NCBI GenBank assembly: GCA_009841225.1 | Contig: VXMF01000022.1 | Location: 62,001-126,000, forward strand | Origin: Terriglobia bacterium | GTDB taxonomy: Bacteria; Acidobacteriota; Terriglobia; Bryobacterales; UBA6623 | Direction of reading: 5' to 3' | DNA length: 64,000 nt | Shown here: one piece after another, positions 2,563 through 35,789 of the stretch | Numbering within the stretch: the stretch's first letter is position 1 | Layout of the letters: each line of letters begins with the position of its first letter | Translations under genes and position numbers: made by a program | Notes under the pieces: model-generated | The model's input: only the letters and a program-made list of their open reading frames with translations | Databases searched by the model: none | What the model was told of the DNA's origin: nothing

Positions 2563-3948
2563 ATGCAATCTCACGACCTGATCGTCATAGGGGCCGGTCC
2601 GGGCGGTTACACCGCCGCCATCCGCGCCGCGCAACTCGGGCTTGACGTAGCCTGCGTAGAGAAGGAAAAGACACTGGGGGGCACCTGCCTGAGAATCGGC
2701 TGCATTCCGAGCAAGGCTTTGCTGGAGTCTTCAGAAATCTACGAACGGGCTTCAGAGGGTTTCGACGAGCACGGGGTGAAGGCCTCGGGCGTGCAGCTCG
2801 ACCTAGCCCGCATGTTGAAACGCAAGGACCGGGTGGTGACATCGCTGACGCGCGGCGTGGCCAGCCTGATCAAGAAGAACAAGATCACACGCTACACCGG
2901 AACCGCGAGATTCGCGTCGGCTTCGAGTCTGGCGATCGACACTGCGGGCGGCACACAAGAAATCGAGGCCAAGCACATCGTAATCGCGACCGGCAGCAAG
3001 TCTTCCTCGCTGCCGGGCATCGAGCTGGACGGTGATCGCGTGGGCACGAGCACGGAAGCGCTTTCGTACAGCGAGGTGCCCGCCCGCCTAGCGGTCATTG
3101 GCGCAGGGTACATCGGACTGGAGATGGGCTCGGTCTGGCGCCGCCTCGGCGCGGAGGTCGTGGTCTTTGAGTATCTCGACCGTATCCTGCCGGGCATGGA
3201 TCTCGAAGTAGCGACGGCTGCCCAGCAAATCCTGGCCAAACAGGGCATGCAGTTTCGGCTTGGGGCCAAGGTCACCGCAGCCCGGGCCGAGGGCGATGCC
3301 TGCACGGTCGAGGCCGACGGAGCTGAGCCCTTCGTCTGCGACCGTGTGCTGGTCGCGGTGGGACGTTTGGCGAACACCGAGGGACTCGGGCTGCAAGCTG
3401 CCGGCGTCGAGTTGGACAGCCGCGGACGGATCGAAGTCGGAGATGGATTCCAAACGTCGGTGGCGGGAATCTACGCGATCGGCGACGTGATCCGTGGCCC
3501 GATGCTTGCGCACAAGGCCGAAGAGGAGGGCATCGCGTGCGTGGAACGCATCGTGACGGGCTACGGCCACGTCAATTACGAGGCGATCCCGGGCGTGGTC
3601 TACACGCATCCAGAGATCGCCTCGGTTGGGAAGACTGAAGAACAGCTGGCCGAGGCAGGGACCGCCTACCGCAAGGGCGTGTTTCCCTTCATCGCCAACG
3701 GCAGGGCCAAGGCCATCGCTGACACCAGCGGGTTCGTCAAGGTGCTCGCCGACGAGGGCACAGATCGGGTGCTCGGAATCCACGTCATCGGCCCCCGCGC
3801 CGGCGATCTGATCGCCGAGGCAGCGGTAGCCGTCGAGTTCGGGGCCAGCAGCGAGGACATCGCGCGGTCCAGCCACGCGCACCCGACTCTGGCGGAAGCG
3901 CTCAAGGAAGCGGCCCTGTCAGTTGACCACAGGGCAATCCATTTCTAG
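2563..3948 (+). CDS. lpd: Dihydrolipoyl dehydrogenase (E3)
   Basis: This FAD flavoprotein of 461 residues reoxidises dihydrolipoamide and passes electrons to NAD. In order it shows the FAD-binding glycine motif GAGPGGYTAA (about residues 10-19), the redox disulfide C42-C47 in GGTCLRIGCIPSK, the NAD-binding GAGYIGLEMG, the second FAD segment AIGDVIRGPMLAHKAEEEG, and the C-terminal HAHPTLAEAL with the catalytic His-Glu pair. A GTG nine bases upstream could also start it, but ATG 2563 is preferred because GGAG lies 8 bases before it. It is the third gene of the sucAB-lpd operon. It could also serve other lipoamide complexes, which cannot be decided here. Confidence 0.96.
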   Translation: MQSHDLIVIGAGPGGYTAAIRAAQLGLDVACVEKEKTLGGTCLRIGCIPSKALLESSEIYERASEGFDEHGVKASGVQLDLARMLKRKDRVVTSLTRGVASLIKKNKITRYTGTARFASASSLAIDTAGGTQEIEAKHIVIATGSKSSSLPGIELDGDRVGTSTEALSYSEVPARLAVIGAGYIGLEMGSVWRRLGAEVVVFEYLDRILPGMDLEVATAAQQILAKQGMQFRLGAKVTAARAEGDACTVEADGAEPFVCDRVLVAVGRLANTEGLGLQAAGVELDSRGRIEVGDGFQTSVAGIYAIGDVIRGPMLAHKAEEEGIACVERIVTGYGHVNYEAIPGVVYTHPEIASVGKTEEQLAEAGTAYRKGVFPFIANGRAKAIADTSGFVKVLADEGTDRVLGIHVIGPRAGDLIAEAAVAVEFGASSEDIARSSHAHPTLAEALKEAALSVDHRAIHF

Positions 3949-4389: not shown

Positions 4390-7300
4390 CTAGAATTCGT
4401 AGCGCAGGAACAGCTCGATCCGCCTAGGGCCAACGATGGTACTGGTGATTCGTCCGAATTGCGTGGAGCCGATCGAGTGGGACCCTGAGTAGAACGACGG
4501 GTGGTTGAGGATGTTCTCGACGCGCGCTCCCGCCTTGACGGAGTGGTTCTCGGTGATTCTCGTCAGCTTGCTCACCGAGACGTCGAACACGAACGCGCTC
4601 GGGCCCGAGAACAGGCGTCGCTGCAGGTTCCCAACCTCGCCCGGTCCTGGATGGGAGAAGGCTTGGCCCGTGAACCTGTCGGCGCCATCAATCGCCACAC
4701 CGCTGTTATCGCGCGTGTTGATCGCGCCCTGCGAGATCATGAACGGCCCGTCATCGGTCATTCGGAATCGCACGATATGGTCGAGTTGGTCCTTGTTCAA
4801 TGATGACGTAGCCGTGTTCTCACCCGACCGGCCGCGGCGATTCAAAGTGCCTCGCCCCGACAATATGGACAGCGGGGATCCACTTTGCAGCGTGACGATG
4901 GAGGCCAGCGTCCAGCCTTGGAGCAAGCGGTTGGAGGAATTGAAGGGAAGCCTCCAAATGACGTTAGCGTTCATCACATGGGTCAAATCGAAGGTCGCGC
5001 GGGCACGCTCCAGTTCCGGTTGCTCCAGATCTAGGAAGGGCGCGAACCGGTGGGAGCCGACCCCGCTTGAATCGGTCAAGACCTTCGAGAACGAATAGTT
5101 GGCTTGGAACTGCACGCCGCTCGCCGCTCGCCGCCGCACCTCAAGTTGCAAGGCGTGATAGCTCGAATTGGAGTAGTTCGTCACCAAATCGCTTACGAAG
5201 GCGTTCTGGTTGCGCCGGAAGCTGACGTCAGTTCCCTCGGTCAGGCCGTTGAAGACATACAGTTCGGCCAAACCGCCTGGCTCGCCTTGGCGAATGTAGT
5301 TCTGCACGATCGGGAAGCGGATATACCCTCCCCCGATGATCCTCGGAAACACGATGAGCTCCTCGCTGCCCTCCAGAGCGGGGTTGTAGCTGGGGTCGAA
5401 GAAGCCAGTCGCAGCTTGCGCCAAGAAGCCGTTGTTGCGGGCTCGGATCACGTCGTCAAGGAATCCGTTCTCCTTGATGATGACTTGGTTGTAGTCGAAC
5501 GACCGGACCAGTTTGGTGCCCTTGTTGCCAACGTAGCGGGCCTCGACCACGGTCTTCCAGCCGATGTCGCGCTGTAAGCCGAAGTTCCACTGCTGCACGT
5601 ACGGCGAGCGGAAGTTCGGATCGATGGAGAACACCGCCGCGCCCGGATCAATCAGCTGATTCTGGCTCACTCGGCGCGGGACGGCGTATTCAGGAGGATC
5701 CACTGTGACCGGCCCGTCTGCGAGGAATGCATCAAGGTTCTGGAGCAAGTTCGAGCCCTGCAGGCCATCGTTGGCCGTAATGGCATTGTTGGCACTGCCA
5801 ATCGTCTCGTCATTGACGTAGTTGATGCTGTAGCCGGCGCGCAGGGATGTCTTGCCATCACCGAAAACATCCCAGGCAATGCCAATGTTCGGCGCGAAAT
5901 TGTTGCGATCCGGATTCCACAAGGGCCGCCCCACGCCGCCACCGGCAAAGTCCAGTTCGGCGTCGGACAGCAAGGTATCGATCAGGGTGCCGGGCCCGGG
6001 AACTGGCAGCAGCATGAGGCTGTCGCGCTCATCCAGTCTCCCGAAATACTCCCAGCGCAGGCCCAGATTCACGGTGAAGCGCGGCCGGATCTTGATGCTG
6101 TCCTGGCCGTACAACGCGAACGAATCGTAGCTATATCGCCTGCGCTGCTCTTGTCCGGGGACGAAACCAGATGTCCGGTCCCTGACATTGAACGACTGCG
6201 ATGCGGTCGAGACGATGCCTGCCAGCGAGGCAAGCAGGGACTGGGCGGTGCCCAGATCGCCGGAATCAATACCGCCTGGAAACAACGCTCCCGGGATTTG
6301 GTACTCGCTCTCCACCCCCAAGCCGATCCCCATTTCCGGCACGACACCGAAGTAGTTGAAGCTCTCGACCCGGACTTGCTGCGCGTCGAATCCGAACTGC
6401 ACCGAGTGCCGCCCGATCAGCGCCATGGCGTTGTCGCGGATGTTGAAGGTGTCGGTGTAGCGCCCTTGCGGAGCAAAGTTAACGTTTGGATTCGTATACA
6501 GCATCCCCGACACTTCATAGTCGGTCGGAGCTGCGCTGTTGCGAAAATCCCCCGGGGCGAGATTGAAGCCGAAGCGCGCCTCGTTGGTCCAGCGCGGTCC
6601 GAACGTGCTGCGCCATGCAGCCGAGAGAAACTGCGATTTGACGAAATCCTGCACCGGGGGCGCTTCGTAGTAGGCCACGCCGGTGTCGGGGCGGTCGTTG
6701 GTCTCGTCGCTGCGCTTGTACGTCACCGCCAGCGCTCCGCTAGCGCTCGCGTTCCAGTCGCCACGCGCTGTGATGGCTTTCCTGTCTGCGTTGTCGCGGG
6801 TCAAGAAGCGATACCCGGCCGTATTGAGCTGGCGCTCGGACGTGCTGTCTCCCCGGTCGAAGTTGTTGATTTCGCTGGGAGCCGGAATCTGGCTCAGGAG
6901 CTGCGCCGCCGCCGCGTCCGCCTCCAATCCCTGCAGCCTCAGCACGTTGACTTCGCGCAAGGTGTTGCTCAGGTCTAGGTATCTGAAGACTCCCTGGGCC
7001 GCAGTCGGAGTCAGGATCGTGGTGTTGACGAGGCTCTCGCGCCGGTCTGTCATCACCTCATAGTTAGCGAAGAAGAAGACGCGATTCTTGATCGCAGGAC
7101 CGCCCAGCGAGCCGCCGTACTGGTTGAAGCTCAGCTCCGGTTTCTCCAAGCCCTGCCGGTTGGAAAACCAGGGCGAGGCGGCGAGCTTGTGGCTGCGGTT
7201 GTGCCAGTAGGCGTTGCCGTGAAACTCCGGCCCGCCAGATCGTGTCGTGAAGTTCACCTGGGACGCGCCCATGCCGACCGCCGAAGATCCGTTCTGAGTC

Positions 7301-7950
7301 GTGATGGCGAACTCGGCGACTTGATCGATCAGAGTCCGGCTCGACAAGAAGTCCAGAGCGTTGCTGCGGATGAAGTTGTCCTGGATGTTGATGCCATCCA
7401 GAGTGACGTTGGAGTATGACGTGCGCTGGCCGTTGATGACGGTGCTCGCAGCGCCGCCGTAAGCGACTCCTGCCTGCAGGCTGACGAAGCTCAGGGGGTC
7501 CCTTCCGATCAAGGGAAGCTCTTGGATCTGGTCAGAAGTGACGATGGAAGTGACTTCCGCGTTCGATGTCTGCACACGGGCCACATCGCCTTCGACAACC
7601 ACGACTTCCGTGGACGGCCCAAGCTCAAGAACGATCGGCGGCAGCGAGGTAGCCAGTGCGACATCGACCTTCTGATGATTGACCGTGTAATTGCGGAAAC
7701 CCTCGGCGCTGACCTCGATCGTGTACATTCCGGGCACCAAGGTACCCACATTGAAGGAGCCCGCCACGCTCGTTTCTAGTTCAACGGTTACGCCAGTGGA
7801 CTCACTCCGAACCGTCACCGACGCGCCTGGAATGGACGCCCCGGTGGCATCCAGAACGACACCGGCTAGCCTCCCGGTAGCCGTCTGGCCAAATACACCG
7901 GTCGGGATAACCAAGACCACTAAGAAGATCAAAACACGAGCTAACTTCAT
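4390..7950 (-). CDS. TonB-dependent receptor, Oar-like, with N-terminal carboxypeptidase-regulatory-like domain
   Basis: This 1186-residue outer-membrane protein probably imports large substrates, by family analogy plant- or host-derived glycans. It begins with a signal peptide (MKLARVLIFLVVLVIPTGVFG, cleaved before QTATG). A beta-sandwich CarboxypepD_reg domain follows at about 24-110 (GRLAGVVLDATGASIPGASV). The plug region is near 130-240, with VINGQRTSYSNVTLDGINIQ. The rest is a long beta-barrel ending in the aromatic RIELFLRYEF typical of outer-membrane C-termini. Size and architecture match the large Oar/TonB receptors that are expanded in Acidobacteriota. The region upstream of its ATG is AT-rich and could hold the promoter. 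No SusD-like partner is encoded nearby, so the substrate is open. Confidence 0.9.
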   Translation of the reverse strand: MKLARVLIFLVVLVIPTGVFGQTATGRLAGVVLDATGASIPGASVTVRSESTGVTVELETSVAGSFNVGTLVPGMYTIEVSAEGFRNYTVNHQKVDVALATSLPPIVLELGPSTEVVVVEGDVARVQTSNAEVTSIVTSDQIQELPLIGRDPLSFVSLQAGVAYGGAASTVINGQRTSYSNVTLDGINIQDNFIRSNALDFLSSRTLIDQVAEFAITTQNGSSAVGMGASQVNFTTRSGGPEFHGNAYWHNRSHKLAASPWFSNRQGLEKPELSFNQYGGSLGGPAIKNRVFFFANYEVMTDRRESLVNTTILTPTAAQGVFRYLDLSNTLREVNVLRLQGLEADAAAAQLLSQIPAPSEINNFDRGDSTSERQLNTAGYRFLTRDNADRKAITARGDWNASASGALAVTYKRSDETNDRPDTGVAYYEAPPVQDFVKSQFLSAAWRSTFGPRWTNEARFGFNLAPGDFRNSAAPTDYEVSGMLYTNPNVNFAPQGRYTDTFNIRDNAMALIGRHSVQFGFDAQQVRVESFNYFGVVPEMGIGLGVESEYQIPGALFPGGIDSGDLGTAQSLLASLAGIVSTASQSFNVRDRTSGFVPGQEQRRRYSYDSFALYGQDSIKIRPRFTVNLGLRWEYFGRLDERDSLMLLPVPGPGTLIDTLLSDAELDFAGGGVGRPLWNPDRNNFAPNIGIAWDVFGDGKTSLRAGYSINYVNDETIGSANNAITANDGLQGSNLLQNLDAFLADGPVTVDPPEYAVPRRVSQNQLIDPGAAVFSIDPNFRSPYVQQWNFGLQRDIGWKTVVEARYVGNKGTKLVRSFDYNQVIIKENGFLDDVIRARNNGFLAQAATGFFDPSYNPALEGSEELIVFPRIIGGGYIRFPIVQNYIRQGEPGGLAELYVFNGLTEGTDVSFRRNQNAFVSDLVTNYSNSSYHALQLEVRRRAASGVQFQANYSFSKVLTDSSGVGSHRFAPFLDLEQPELERARATFDLTHVMNANVIWRLPFNSSNRLLQGWTLASIVTLQSGSPLSILSGRGTLNRRGRSGENTATSSLNKDQLDHIVRFRMTDDGPFMISQGAINTRDNSGVAIDGADRFTGQAFSHPGPGEVGNLQRRLFSGPSAFVFDVSVSKLTRITENHSVKAGARVENILNHPSFYSGSHSIGSTQFGRITSTIVGPRRIELFLRYEF

Positions 7951-33126: not shown

Positions 33127-33155
33127 CGACTGTCAGGAAGAGACCGCGAACGCTG

Positions 33156-33944
33156 TCAAGCTGCGACGCGTTGTAGGAGCTTCCGATTCAAGTCGTCGTG
33201 CGAAGCCAGCGACGAAATCATGTCTCCACCAACGTCTGATAGCCTCGCAAGGTCCAACCTCGGAATCGCGGCTTGGTCTTGAAAAACAAGAATAGACTCG
33301 AAATGCAACTCGTGCCTGTGGAAGTGCGACAACACGATGGTAGTTAAGCGCACCTTATCGCGGTTCGGTACACCAAACAGGAAAAGCGGGACGCCGCTCT
33401 TCCCTTCTATCCGATAGTCCACCGGATATGCGTCAGCATTGGGCACAGCCGGCTGGAAGTCGCGTTCGATTTGGGCTTCGTCCACATATCTGAAGAGGAG
33501 GTCGGCTAGGTCGTCATAGAAAGTTGAGTCGACATTCGAACGGGAGAGCAGCGTCAGGTCATAGACCCTTGTCAGCGCTTGCCCGAAGGCAAAGATAGCT
33601 GCTGGTAGGCGCTCGAACTCGGTGTCAACGCAGAGCACGCCACCTTCGCCACCCCAGCGAAGCCCAGTTTCCCCCATGATGCGCTCGAGGATCATTCCGC
33701 GCGTACCGTCCATAAAGGAGTCGACGTCGTGGTCGTAACTGATGCGCATCAGCGTATGCCCCCGGTCTGACAGCCGAAGACCGCCCGAAGCTGACATGGA
33801 GACATGAATCGGTAGGCGGTCGCCATCGGGAAACGCAAAGTGTGTGCGCAACATGAGCGCACCATCCGGGCGCGGTTCGACCCGCACTTCCTGACAGAGG
33901 CTCTTGCACAATAGAGTTCGGAGCGCGTCCGTGTCGAGGGTCAA
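33156..33944 (-). CDS. DUF1828/DUF1829-type protein
   Basis: The 262-residue product has an N-terminal DUF1828 pattern (residues about 1-90: DRLPIHVSMSASGGLRLSDRGHTLMR) and a C-terminal half similar to DUF1829 (about 150-255: YRIEGKSGVPLFLFGVPNRDKVRL). DUF1828 proteins are phage- and island-associated, with no settled function. The ATG overlaps the stop of the upstream 106-residue gene by 4 bases, so the two are translationally coupled. The C-terminal half has conserved Lys/Asp positions reminiscent of a nuclease-like core, but I cannot verify this. Confidence 0.78.
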   Translation of the reverse strand: MTLDTDALRTLLCKSLCQEVRVEPRPDGALMLRTHFAFPDGDRLPIHVSMSASGGLRLSDRGHTLMRISYDHDVDSFMDGTRGMILERIMGETGLRWGGEGGVLCVDTEFERLPAAIFAFGQALTRVYDLTLLSRSNVDSTFYDDLADLLFRYVDEAQIERDFQPAVPNADAYPVDYRIEGKSGVPLFLFGVPNRDKVRLTTIVLSHFHRHELHFESILVFQDQAAIPRLDLARLSDVGGDMISSLASHDDLNRKLLQRVAA

Positions 33945-34261
33945 AACTTCAGCCTCGGTTGGTCGCTCTCGACCTTGAAGCCAGTCGCGTTAAAGTCCTC
34001 CGTAAGACAGGCCAGTGCGCCATCTACAGTCTCGAACCGATCTGTCTCTGTCGCGTCGGACTCCGCCTTTCTTCCGGCCGCGATCGCCTGCTCCGAAGCA
34101 CGATGAATATGCGGGCGATACGCGATGTCACCGTGCTCGTGGCTTGGCCCATTGTATCGAGCTAAGGTCACCGGCTGGGCACCCCGAGGCAGGAAAGAGA
34201 TCCCGCATGAGAAATCCTGTTGGTCTTCCAGATTCTGCCGCTGATAGACCCGGAAGCGCAC
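33941..34261 (-). CDS. 106-residue protein coupled to the DUF1828 gene
   Basis: The product starts at GTG 34261 (MRFRVYQRQNLEDQQDF). The centre has two His-rich motifs, YNGPSHEHGD and PHIHRASEQAI, followed by an acidic helix (TETDRFETVDGALACLTED). The pattern RYNG...HEH...HIHRA recurs in small proteins of unknown function in toxin-antitoxin-like neighbourhoods; I cannot give a family number with confidence. The frame is open 11 codons further upstream without a better start. Its stop overlaps the start of the DUF1828 gene (ATGA), the arrangement of a two-gene module. Confidence 0.7.
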   Translation of the reverse strand: MRFRVYQRQNLEDQQDFSCGISFLPRGAQPVTLARYNGPSHEHGDIAYRPHIHRASEQAIAAGRKAESDATETDRFETVDGALACLTEDFNATGFKVESDQPRLKF

Positions 34262-34345
34262 CCTATCGATCTGAGTGCGTCTAGTTCCGATTCAGTATAG
34301 AGCCTGGAAACCGTTTCGAGAAGCAACCTGAGACTGTGCGATTAG

Positions 34346-34555
34346 TGCCGTGGCGGAAGGTTAGGCCAACGACATGGCGACAGCGACACCTGCGACTTGG
34401 AGACACAGGTCCTCAATCAGCGTATCCAATTCGGCATCGATCCCGCAGGTTTCAGTGGACTCTGCGAGCGCCTGGTGACCTATGGTGCCGACCGGGTTCA
34501 CATCCGGCACACCCTAAACCTGCCGATACTGCACCAATACAGCGCAGCCGACTAG
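34346..34555 (+). pseudogene. Possible C-terminal gene remnant
   Basis: A 69-codon open stretch without a usable start codon reads like real protein at its end (ETQVLNQRIQFGIDPAGF, then GADRVHIRHTLNLPI). It stops inside the left arm of the hairpin at 34552-34588. The lack of a start and of any upstream continuation suggests the tail of a gene whose beginning has been lost. No family is recognised. It may also be chance. Confidence 0.3.
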
Positions 34556-34588
34556 GTTAATTCAAATTCTGATTTTGAATTAGCCTAG
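34552..34588. repeat. Long AT-rich inverted repeat (15-bp arms, 7-base loop)
   Basis: CTAGGTTAATTCAAA at 34552-34566 and TTTGAATTAGCCTAG at 34574-34588 are reverse complements except for one position that still allows a G-T pair. It stands between the gene remnant and the convergent enolase-superfamily gene. The composition is far more AT-rich than the surroundings. It lacks a run of T, so it is not a classic terminator in either direction. Confidence 0.7.
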
Positions 34589-34634
34589 ATTTGAAACACC
34601 TTCAACGTCTCGTCACCCAAGCGATTGATGACCG

Positions 34635-35789
34635 TTACAGGAAGACCATGTCGGAATAGTTGCCGGGAGGAGTGGGCCTACCGCGCGGGACGGTGTACTT
34701 GCGAATCGTGTCCTGGTTCAGCTCGATACCCAAGCCAGGCCCTTGCGGCAGCTCGAGCTGCCCTTCGGTGATGCGTAGCCCACCGACGAGCAGTTCTTCG
34801 ATAAACGGATTGCCGGTCTGGTCCGCCTCTACGGTCAGGGCGTGCGGAGTCGCCGCTACCAAGTGCATGTTGGCCGTCAGCGCCACCGCGTCGCTCCAAG
34901 TGTGCGGCGCGATCTTGACGTCTCGCTCCGCCGCATCCGACGCGATGCGCAGCGCCTCGGTCAGCCCCCCGCAACGGCAGCAATCCGGCTGCGCGATCTC
35001 GACCACCTCGCCATCGATCAGCTCCTTGAAGCCTTGCCGTCCAAACTCGTTCTCGCCGGCGGCCAACGGAATCCCCGGGATGCTGGGTCTCAGCGCCCGA
35101 AACGCTTCGGGCCGCTCCGGGGCGAAGGGCTCCTCCAGCCAGAACACCTCAGCAGCGAGCCAATCCGGTGCCATCTGGCGCGCCTCGCCAAGCGAATAGC
35201 GGGCATTGCCATCGACCATCAGGCGTACGTCGGGACCGATCGCGTCTCGCACGGCGCTCAGGGCGGCCCGGTCATAGTCCAGATCCTTTCCCAGCCGCAT
35301 CTTGACAGCACGGAACCCGTGGTCGAGATGACGTTGCGCCTCGTCCCTGAGTTCGCCGATCTCGCGCTTCCACAGCAGCCCGCTAGCGTACGCCGGGACT
35401 GCCGCTCTGGCCGGTCCAATCAGGTCGCAGATCCGCTTTCCCTCGACTTTGCCCCGGATGTCCCAGAGGGCGATATCGATGCCGCCCAGGGCTGAGACTG
35501 CGGCACCCTTGCGCCCGTACCAGCGCGTCAGCGTGTAACAGCGCTGCCAGCAGTCCTCGATCTCGAGCGGATCAGCGCCCACCAACAGAGGGCGCAATTG
35601 GCCTTCGATGATTGTCCGCACCAAGTCTGGATGCGAATAGACCGAGCCCAGCCCTTCGACGCCCTCGTCGGTGAGGACCTTGACCAGAGTCGTCAGGCGG
35701 CCCGTGCAGGTCCCGCCGGCATAACGAAATCGCCGTGCGGGCGGATATTCGAAGCACAGGTTGATGACCTCGATGTCGCGAATCTTCAT
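34635..35789 (-). CDS. Enolase-superfamily dehydratase (mandelate racemase/muconate lactonizing type)
   Basis: A 384-residue protein with the capping domain at 1-130 and a (beta/alpha)7 barrel after it. The metal and catalytic residues of the mandelate-racemase subgroup are visible: K163-x-R165 (AVKMRLG), D193-x-N195 (MVDGNARYS), E220 (WLEEPF), E246 (AGENEFG) and H296 (APHTWSD). Such enzymes dehydrate or racemise sugar acids. The upstream symporter (29-base gap, same strand) probably brings in the substrate. The frame reaches far into the symporter gene, but ATG 35789 begins the fold (KIRDIEVINLCF). Confidence 0.87.
   Translation of the reverse strand: MKIRDIEVINLCFEYPPARRFRYAGGTCTGRLTTLVKVLTDEGVEGLGSVYSHPDLVRTIIEGQLRPLLVGADPLEIEDCWQRCYTLTRWYGRKGAAVSALGGIDIALWDIRGKVEGKRICDLIGPARAAVPAYASGLLWKREIGELRDEAQRHLDHGFRAVKMRLGKDLDYDRAALSAVRDAIGPDVRLMVDGNARYSLGEARQMAPDWLAAEVFWLEEPFAPERPEAFRALRPSIPGIPLAAGENEFGRQGFKELIDGEVVEIAQPDCCRCGGLTEALRIASDAAERDVKIAPHTWSDAVALTANMHLVAATPHALTVEADQTGNPFIEELLVGGLRITEGQLELPQGPGLGIELNQDTIRKYTVPRGRPTPPGNYSDMVFL

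Follow-up and report, generated by a model that had tools for sequence, protein, structure and literature searches.

The closest described counterpart of the pair of genes studied here is PDC-M24, a PADLOC candidate defence system made up of PDC-M24A, a DUF6978 protein, and PDC-M24B, a protein carrying DUF1828 and DUF1829. A preprint on embedded defences is said to be the source of the PDC names; in our literature search, the term PDC-M24 was not found in any paper. Two other PADLOC candidates showed no defence when tested (PMC12409345). DS-6/HipAD, from DefensePredictor, is a validated defence system; there, the predicted antitoxin-like and DNA-binding partner of a HipA kinase is a DUF1829 protein (PMC13092281). 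It resembles our pair in having two genes, with the DUF1829 protein as the predicted antitoxin-like partner, and differs in that its toxin is the HipA kinase and its partner carries DUF3037 (PMC13092281). HipA and DUF3037 domains were not matched in the window pair or in its aligned relatives. Membership of HipAD was considered and rejected, there being no HipA among the six Pfam families matched by 62 partner sequences (E ≤ 0.1). As in toxin–antitoxin systems, the pair is a small two-gene operon with coupled genes. Type III restriction–modification is related by location: its res–mod operon hosts many relatives of the pair, and fossils of both res and mod are found in the window. Neither gene of the pair is a res or a mod, and prophages and many chromosomes carry the pair with no res or mod gene detected.

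The window, by which we mean the whole stretch of DNA analysed, comprises 64,000 nt of Terriglobia bacterium GCA_009841225.1 (contig VXMF01000022.1, positions 62,001–126,000 of the forward strand). Its features are listed in Table 1. The arrangement given in the preliminary description, two ORFs that overlap by four bases (TTGA) and stand between other genes, was borne out together with its coordinates. The pair shares with PDC-M24 its layout, gene A lying directly upstream of gene B in the same orientation, and apparently its two families, for gene A by way of the relatives. This branch differs from canonical PDC-M24 in that it is often found in Type III-like restriction operons, in the truncation of the window copy, and in that PDC-M24A models miss both the window partner and that of locus L088.

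Table 1 Features of the locus (positions in the window)
Feature	Position	Strand	Basis
DUF1828 gene (with DUF1829-equivalent), PDC-M24B-like; intact ORF, 262 aa, TTG start	33156..33944	−	Pfam, PADLOC, PHROG, AlphaFold2, dN/dS
DUF6978 gene (PDC-M24A-like), C-terminal two thirds; N-terminally truncated, open; 106 aa, GTG start	33941..34261	−	phrog_27326, full-length relatives, mapped deletion
5′ end of DUF6978 gene and bases upstream, in another frame (SRLYTESELDALRSI)	34265..34330	−	Alignment
res fossil (Type III-like restriction subunit), C-terminal tail, directly upstream of DUF6978	34364..34510	−	res-tail queries
Inverted repeat at mod stop, AT-rich	34552..34588	−	RNA fold −13.1 kcal/mol, z −3.2
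mod fossil (Type III-like methyltransferase), last 17 codons and stop	34585..34638	−	Ungapped alignment

The smaller ORF had been described as a His-rich and uncharacterised protein of 106 residues. The ORF and its HEH and HIH motifs are real, and the histidines of both motifs are invariant in all 62 sequences of a hand-chosen alignment of which the window ORF is one. It is not a whole protein, however, and its family already has a name, DUF6978. The ORF matches phrog_27326 with E = 3.4e-26, and as the match begins only at profile position 48 it gave the first sign of a missing N-terminus. Among full-length relatives, those from 53 genome loci are 149–166 residues long (median 158) and those from 26 viral loci 139–193. 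The closest of the full-length relatives are at loci L010 and L011. Alignment with L010 places a deletion of 103 nt, with a frameshift, between window bases 34264 and 34265, and alignment with L011 gives a deletion of 106 nt; neither is a multiple of three. Since the deletion breaks the phase and the old N-terminal codons are still present in another frame, the 106-residue ORF is a truncated gene. The ATG start of L010 lies opposite ACG in the window, while the alignment with L011 is gapped there. The truncated ORF still has the core residues that never vary in the family. A complete new protein, as an alternative account of this ORF, was rejected on the longer relatives and the mapped deletion. 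Searches of the ORF against Pfam, NCBIfam and PADLOC gave no match, NCBIfam matched neither member of the window pair, and a scan of the viral collection with the window partner alone found nothing. The window copy is truncated and probably half dead, no longer working as a pair.

The larger ORF matches Pfam DUF1828 over residues 34–127 (E = 1.4e-13), the PADLOC model PDC-M24B (PDLC04539) over residues 17–150 (E = 5.3e-11) and phrog_5059 (E = 3.3e-31). Of its earlier assignment as a DUF1828/DUF1829 protein, the first half holds directly and the second by an indirect route: Pfam gave no DUF1829 match at E ≤ 1, whilst a profile–profile comparison aligned the greater part of the protein (Prob 99.2, E = 2.1e-19) with six distant DUF1828 proteins, among them L157 and L162, in which DUF1829 was found.

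The assignment of the smaller gene was made through its relatives, as neither Pfam DUF6978 nor PDC-M24A matches the window ORF itself. In the hand-chosen set of 62 aligned partner sequences, 33 match Pfam DUF6978 at E ≤ 0.1 (best 7.3e-12) and 13 match PDLC04538, the commonest M24A model, at the same threshold (best 1.2e-8). When the profile of the partner family was compared with that of classical DUF6978, the agreement was no more than moderate (Prob 41, E = 2.8e-4). The same genomes also contain distant DUF1828 genes (L155–L162), six of the eight with a small gene directly upstream on our reading of the sequences. The upstream genes of L156, L157 and L161 are matched by PDC-M24A, and those of L156 and L157 also by Pfam DUF6978; PDC-M24 models fit both genes of L156 and L157, and the one gene scanned of L161 (gene A), at E = 6e-57 or better. 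These canonical distant pairs, together with the matches of the 33 and the 13 partner sequences, indicate that the branch studied here, which includes the window pair, is related to PDC-M24 but divergent from it, as judged by sequence comparison. Some of the distant paralogues, again by reading of the sequence, adjoin restriction-type genes.

The preliminary description had suggested a gene-neighbourhood survey, with the alternative that the two genes are chance neighbours. When the genome collection was scanned by alignment with the DUF1828 protein, 179 relatives emerged, of which the best 80 were kept; two of these are cut by a contig end, leaving 78 assessable, and L043 and L063 look like near-duplicates. 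Among these 78, both genes are intact at 52, fragments of DUF6978 accompany an intact DUF1828 at 14, no DUF6978 match is found directly upstream of an intact DUF1828 at 10, DUF6978 is intact and DUF1828 broken at one, and neither is intact at one. One of the 10, L044, has its DUF1828 split near the start and passes by the loose threshold only. A scan of the viral collection, again with DUF1828, gave 28 loci, several of them near-identical; one is cut by a contig end, and both genes are intact at 26 of the other 27 and neither at one. A partner-seeded search of 1,095 genomes from three phyla found 21 loci in 20 genomes, including the window itself and at least five loci already in the DUF1828 set, and at all 21 DUF6978 is adjoined by DUF1828 or a piece of it. 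Seventeen of them were scored directly and L128, L130, L132 and L142 from their twins L018, L020, L017 and L021, respectively, giving 16 with both intact, three with DUF6978 broken, one with DUF1828 broken and one with both broken. The genes overlap in 41 of 53 full-length pairs from genomes and 22 of 26 from viruses, most commonly by 4 nt (26 and 10 pairs, respectively). By sequence, DUF6978 and DUF1828 form a conserved unit of two genes, which overlap in most cases. Chance neighbourhood was rejected on this conservation and on the PHROG matches of both ORFs (E = 3.4e-26 and 3.3e-31).

Where the unit is damaged, the damage is one-sided. DUF6978 is broken or absent beside an intact DUF1828 at 24 loci (23 without L044) against one for the reverse in the best 80 of 179, a ratio from a DUF1828-seeded scan, which favours intact DUF1828; with partner seeding it is only 3:1. 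Most loci are from metagenome bins and some of the breaks may be assembly errors. At two loci of one Gemmatimonadetes bin (L047 and L050), we read short pieces of the N- and C-terminal ends of DUF6978, its middle being deleted. In Pseudomonas phage PACT201 (L003), the pair is broken into several frames, where sequencing errors are possible.

Of 12 res-tail queries, eight match the stretch directly upstream of DUF6978 at E ≤ 1, three of these at E ≤ 0.01 and five weakly, and some also match other places in the window at E = 0.03–1; the tail of L011 is 43% identical over 49 aa (E = 7.8e-6). The mod tail, which ends at the same stop, scores 57 in ungapped alignment; the runner-up among 127,864 window positions scores 26. 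No intact res or mod was matched by phmmer in the window, where only the tails are left. A mod tail followed by a res tail and then the pair matches neither of the two arrangements found in operons of relatives (see below), which implies a rearrangement or a second operon. The inverted repeat at the mod stop, of which L009 has a similar one at about 3120–3159, is possibly an old terminator; promoter and terminator scans of the locus gave results at chance level. L009 is the syntenic locus of a Bryobacterales MAG, with flanks of 92% nucleotide identity. It retains 40 residues of the mod tail at 65% and an intact DUF1828; by reading of the sequence, only the very end of its DUF6978 is left. About 4 kb at L009 1780–5950 occupies the place that most of DUF6978 and its upstream stretch have in the window; this segment holds a gene for an SDH-type protease and other ORFs, among them a gene that we take to encode a DUF4143-like ATPase.

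In the window, then, res and mod are reduced to tails and DUF6978 is truncated, with DUF1828 the one gene still intact. This picture could mean that the pair is simply dead here, DUF1828 awaiting decay and the 106-residue ORF open by chance, as the truncation, the start codon replaced in the alignment with L010 and the two fossils would all allow. DUF1828 is, however, full length and 95% identical to its L009 ortholog, and the 38 changes between them (24 synonymous, 14 nonsynonymous) give a dN/dS of 0.17. DUF1828 genes that lack an intact partner also persist in many other bins. We consider a dead pair rather unlikely: DUF1828 is intact, has been under purifying selection and does not look neutral, though part of this selection may predate the loss of the partner.

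The relatives show what the fossil operon may once have been. Within about 2.5 kb of DUF1828, a res-like gene was matched at 27 and a mod-like gene at 28 of the best 80 of 179 loci. Both are present at 24, always on opposite sides of the pair, in the order res–pair–mod at 16 (for example L010, L012 and L014) and mod–pair–res at eight (for example L055 and L088). Two res and two mod queries were used, which also match their own loci (L010, L012 and L088), where Pfam confirms the genes; at 48 of the 80 loci, some with short flanks, these queries matched neither. To gauge the background density, 30 selected host genomes were searched for N6_N4_Mtase, a family broader than the mod queries; the 288 matches amount to about 2.4 per Mb, or 0.03 for each 12.8-kb locus (from rounded genome sizes). 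The excess of res and mod at pair loci is large, although related loci are not independent. Loci adjacent to restriction genes show, from the locus lists, no visible excess or deficit of DUF6978 loss. In L010, the res–mod slot holds, besides DUF6978–DUF1828, a HepT gene (Pfam, E = 3.8e-28) and a nucleotidyltransferase-like gene, which from its motif we presume to be MntA; these two lie at 6786–7503. The MntA–HepT toxin–antitoxin pair would share the slot with our pair while belonging to other protein families, and the slot may collect several toxin–antitoxin-like cargos.

This placement raises the possibility that the pair is not a defence unit of its own but serves the adjoining Type III restriction genes as a regulator or accessory; it would control restriction, or protect the host upon entry of these genes into a new cell. 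That res, mod and the pair share a strand at the 24 loci, with the pair in the middle, would suit such a role, as would the short gaps in the examples inspected, which suggest a single operon. It fits poorly with the 48 loci whose fetched flanks, some of them short, gave no res or mod match, and with prophages in which the pair stands beside a repressor. Furthermore, contig 3 of the window genome (L177, 12000–24000) carries an intact res–mod operon with 10 nt between its genes, res and mod being 77% and 70% identical, respectively, to proteins of pair-carrying operons. We read it as an empty slot of the kind that DUF6978–DUF1828 fills in relatives, and restriction genes can evidently stand without the pair. 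An accessory role is, in our view, distinctly improbable.

Predicted structures bear on what the two proteins might do. The AlphaFold2 model of the L011 DUF6978 protein is beta-rich with a mean pLDDT of 95. It has no clear relative in the PDB (E = 0.3 at best with Foldseek; Z = 6.0 at best with VIA, rmsd 4.5, 101 aligned), and its best match among viral models (E = 0.006) is to an uncharacterised phage protein; the missing fold match does not show a new fold. Eleven of its residues are invariant in the 62 aligned sequences (R61, S71, L86, Y89, N90, H94, H96, H104, H106, A123 and A135). The R, S, Y-N and two HxH elements among them look like an active site; as there is no confident fold match, conservation is the sole ground for this.

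For DUF1828, the model of the window protein has a pLDDT of 89 and a whole-model pTM of 0.52. Foldseek found no PDB match at E ≤ 0.001 for the models of either protein, and sequence searches of solved structures gave nothing useful. With VIA, residues 12–133 resemble type III secretion chaperones, InvB at Z = 8.2 (rmsd 3.4, 98 aligned) and CesT at Z = 7.2 (rmsd 3.8, 108 aligned). A Z near 8 may reflect a mere common arrangement, so that a chaperone-like N-terminal domain is proposed only tentatively. A comparison of the C-terminal half with nuclease folds had also been suggested. The top VIA rows for residues from about 134 to 262 are mostly PD-(D/E)XK nucleases (Z = 8.0–10.1), including PspGI (Z = 10.1, rmsd 3.9, 153 aligned) and Can2 (Z = 9.2, rmsd 3.1, 119 aligned); response-regulator-like chains also reach Z = 7–8. 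The strand 187–192, where (D/E)xK is expected, is hydrophobic in 11 rows by strand order, without superposition. Four charged residues are conserved among 66 sequences: D145 (65), D176 (66), D196 (64) and K197 (61), with D196–K197 coming after that strand. The model has a PD-(D/E)XK-fold domain that apparently does not carry the canonical (D/E)xK.

The conservation of D176 and of the D196–K197 pair leaves room for a nuclease of non-canonical type and for a reversal of roles, with the PD-(D/E)XK-fold domain of DUF1828 as a nuclease effector and DUF6978 as its sensor or inhibitor. The matches to PspGI and Can2 fit such a reversal, and D145, D176, D196 and K197 could form a shifted catalytic set. 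Set against it are the hydrophobic strand and the 24 of 78 assessable loci (best 80 of 179) at which DUF1828 is found without an intact partner, hard to square with an unrestrained nuclease, and we think the reversal unlikely. The same one-sided loss (24 against 1 in the scan seeded and thus biased by DUF1828, 3 against 1 with partner seeding, many loci being metagenome bins), the dN/dS of the window DUF1828, its likeness to a binder with a modified nuclease fold, the analogy with HipAD and the invariant polar set of DUF6978 lead us to favour DUF6978 as the toxin and DUF1828 as its neutraliser.

The pair also appears to travel. In prophages it often lies beside a cI-type repressor; in Pseudomonas phage 5371, a cI repressor, one small gene and the pair follow one another on the same strand, and when 20 upstream proteins from 17 viral loci were scanned, nine had the S24 peptidase domain that such repressors carry. 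The GC content of the pair is 55–60%, compared with 62–70% for its surroundings. A Defluviicoccus MAG has 80% nucleotide identity to the window over 33155–34262 only. Close relatives are spread over bins of several phyla, some titled as chromosomes (L020, L021 and L032), which makes horizontal transfer of the pair between distant bacteria likely from the sequences. From their names, we take many of these bins to be sponge symbionts. A plasmid collection gave no match to either window protein or to the Pseudomonas phage DUF6978, and E. coli genomes no DNA match to the phage pair.

The two-gene defence or toxin–antitoxin unit put forward in the preliminary description thus fits at the level of the family, given the pairing across phyla and prophages, the relation to PDC-M24 and the 24 of 80 loci between res and mod; it does not fit this truncated copy. 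Taken together, we regard it as somewhat probable on balance that what remains at the locus derives from a mobile branch of PDC-M24, embedded in Type III restriction–modification operons, with DUF6978 as effector and DUF1828 as restrainer. In intact relatives, DUF6978 would be the effector, a small beta-rich protein, which DUF1828 would bind and restrain through its chaperone-like domain. The PD-(D/E)XK-fold domain of DUF1828 would contact nucleic acid, either as a promoter regulator or as a sensor of phage DNA. Infection, perhaps upon failure of restriction, would release DUF6978 and growth would stop. In the window, the effector would be broken and only the restraining protein kept.

A bolder version, which we hold to be doubtful but not far-fetched, is that DUF6978 is a toxin of new fold, guarded by DUF1828 with its chaperone-like domain and a retired PD-(D/E)XK domain, and carried in the slot of Type III restriction operons as exchangeable cargo that kills when restriction is lost or beaten, orphan DUF1828 being a possible anti-addiction immunity against incoming copies. 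If this were true, lineages would escape by deleting the toxin alone, leaving orphan DUF1828 genes behind.

These results give a widespread pair of unknown proteins a name, an anatomy and a testable direction of action. In PADLOC, the pair is merely a candidate and is partly missed in the branch studied here. The one-sided loss of DUF6978 predicts which of the two proteins is toxic. A single restriction slot, seen empty, filled and as a fossil, would provide a natural series on embedded defence cargo.
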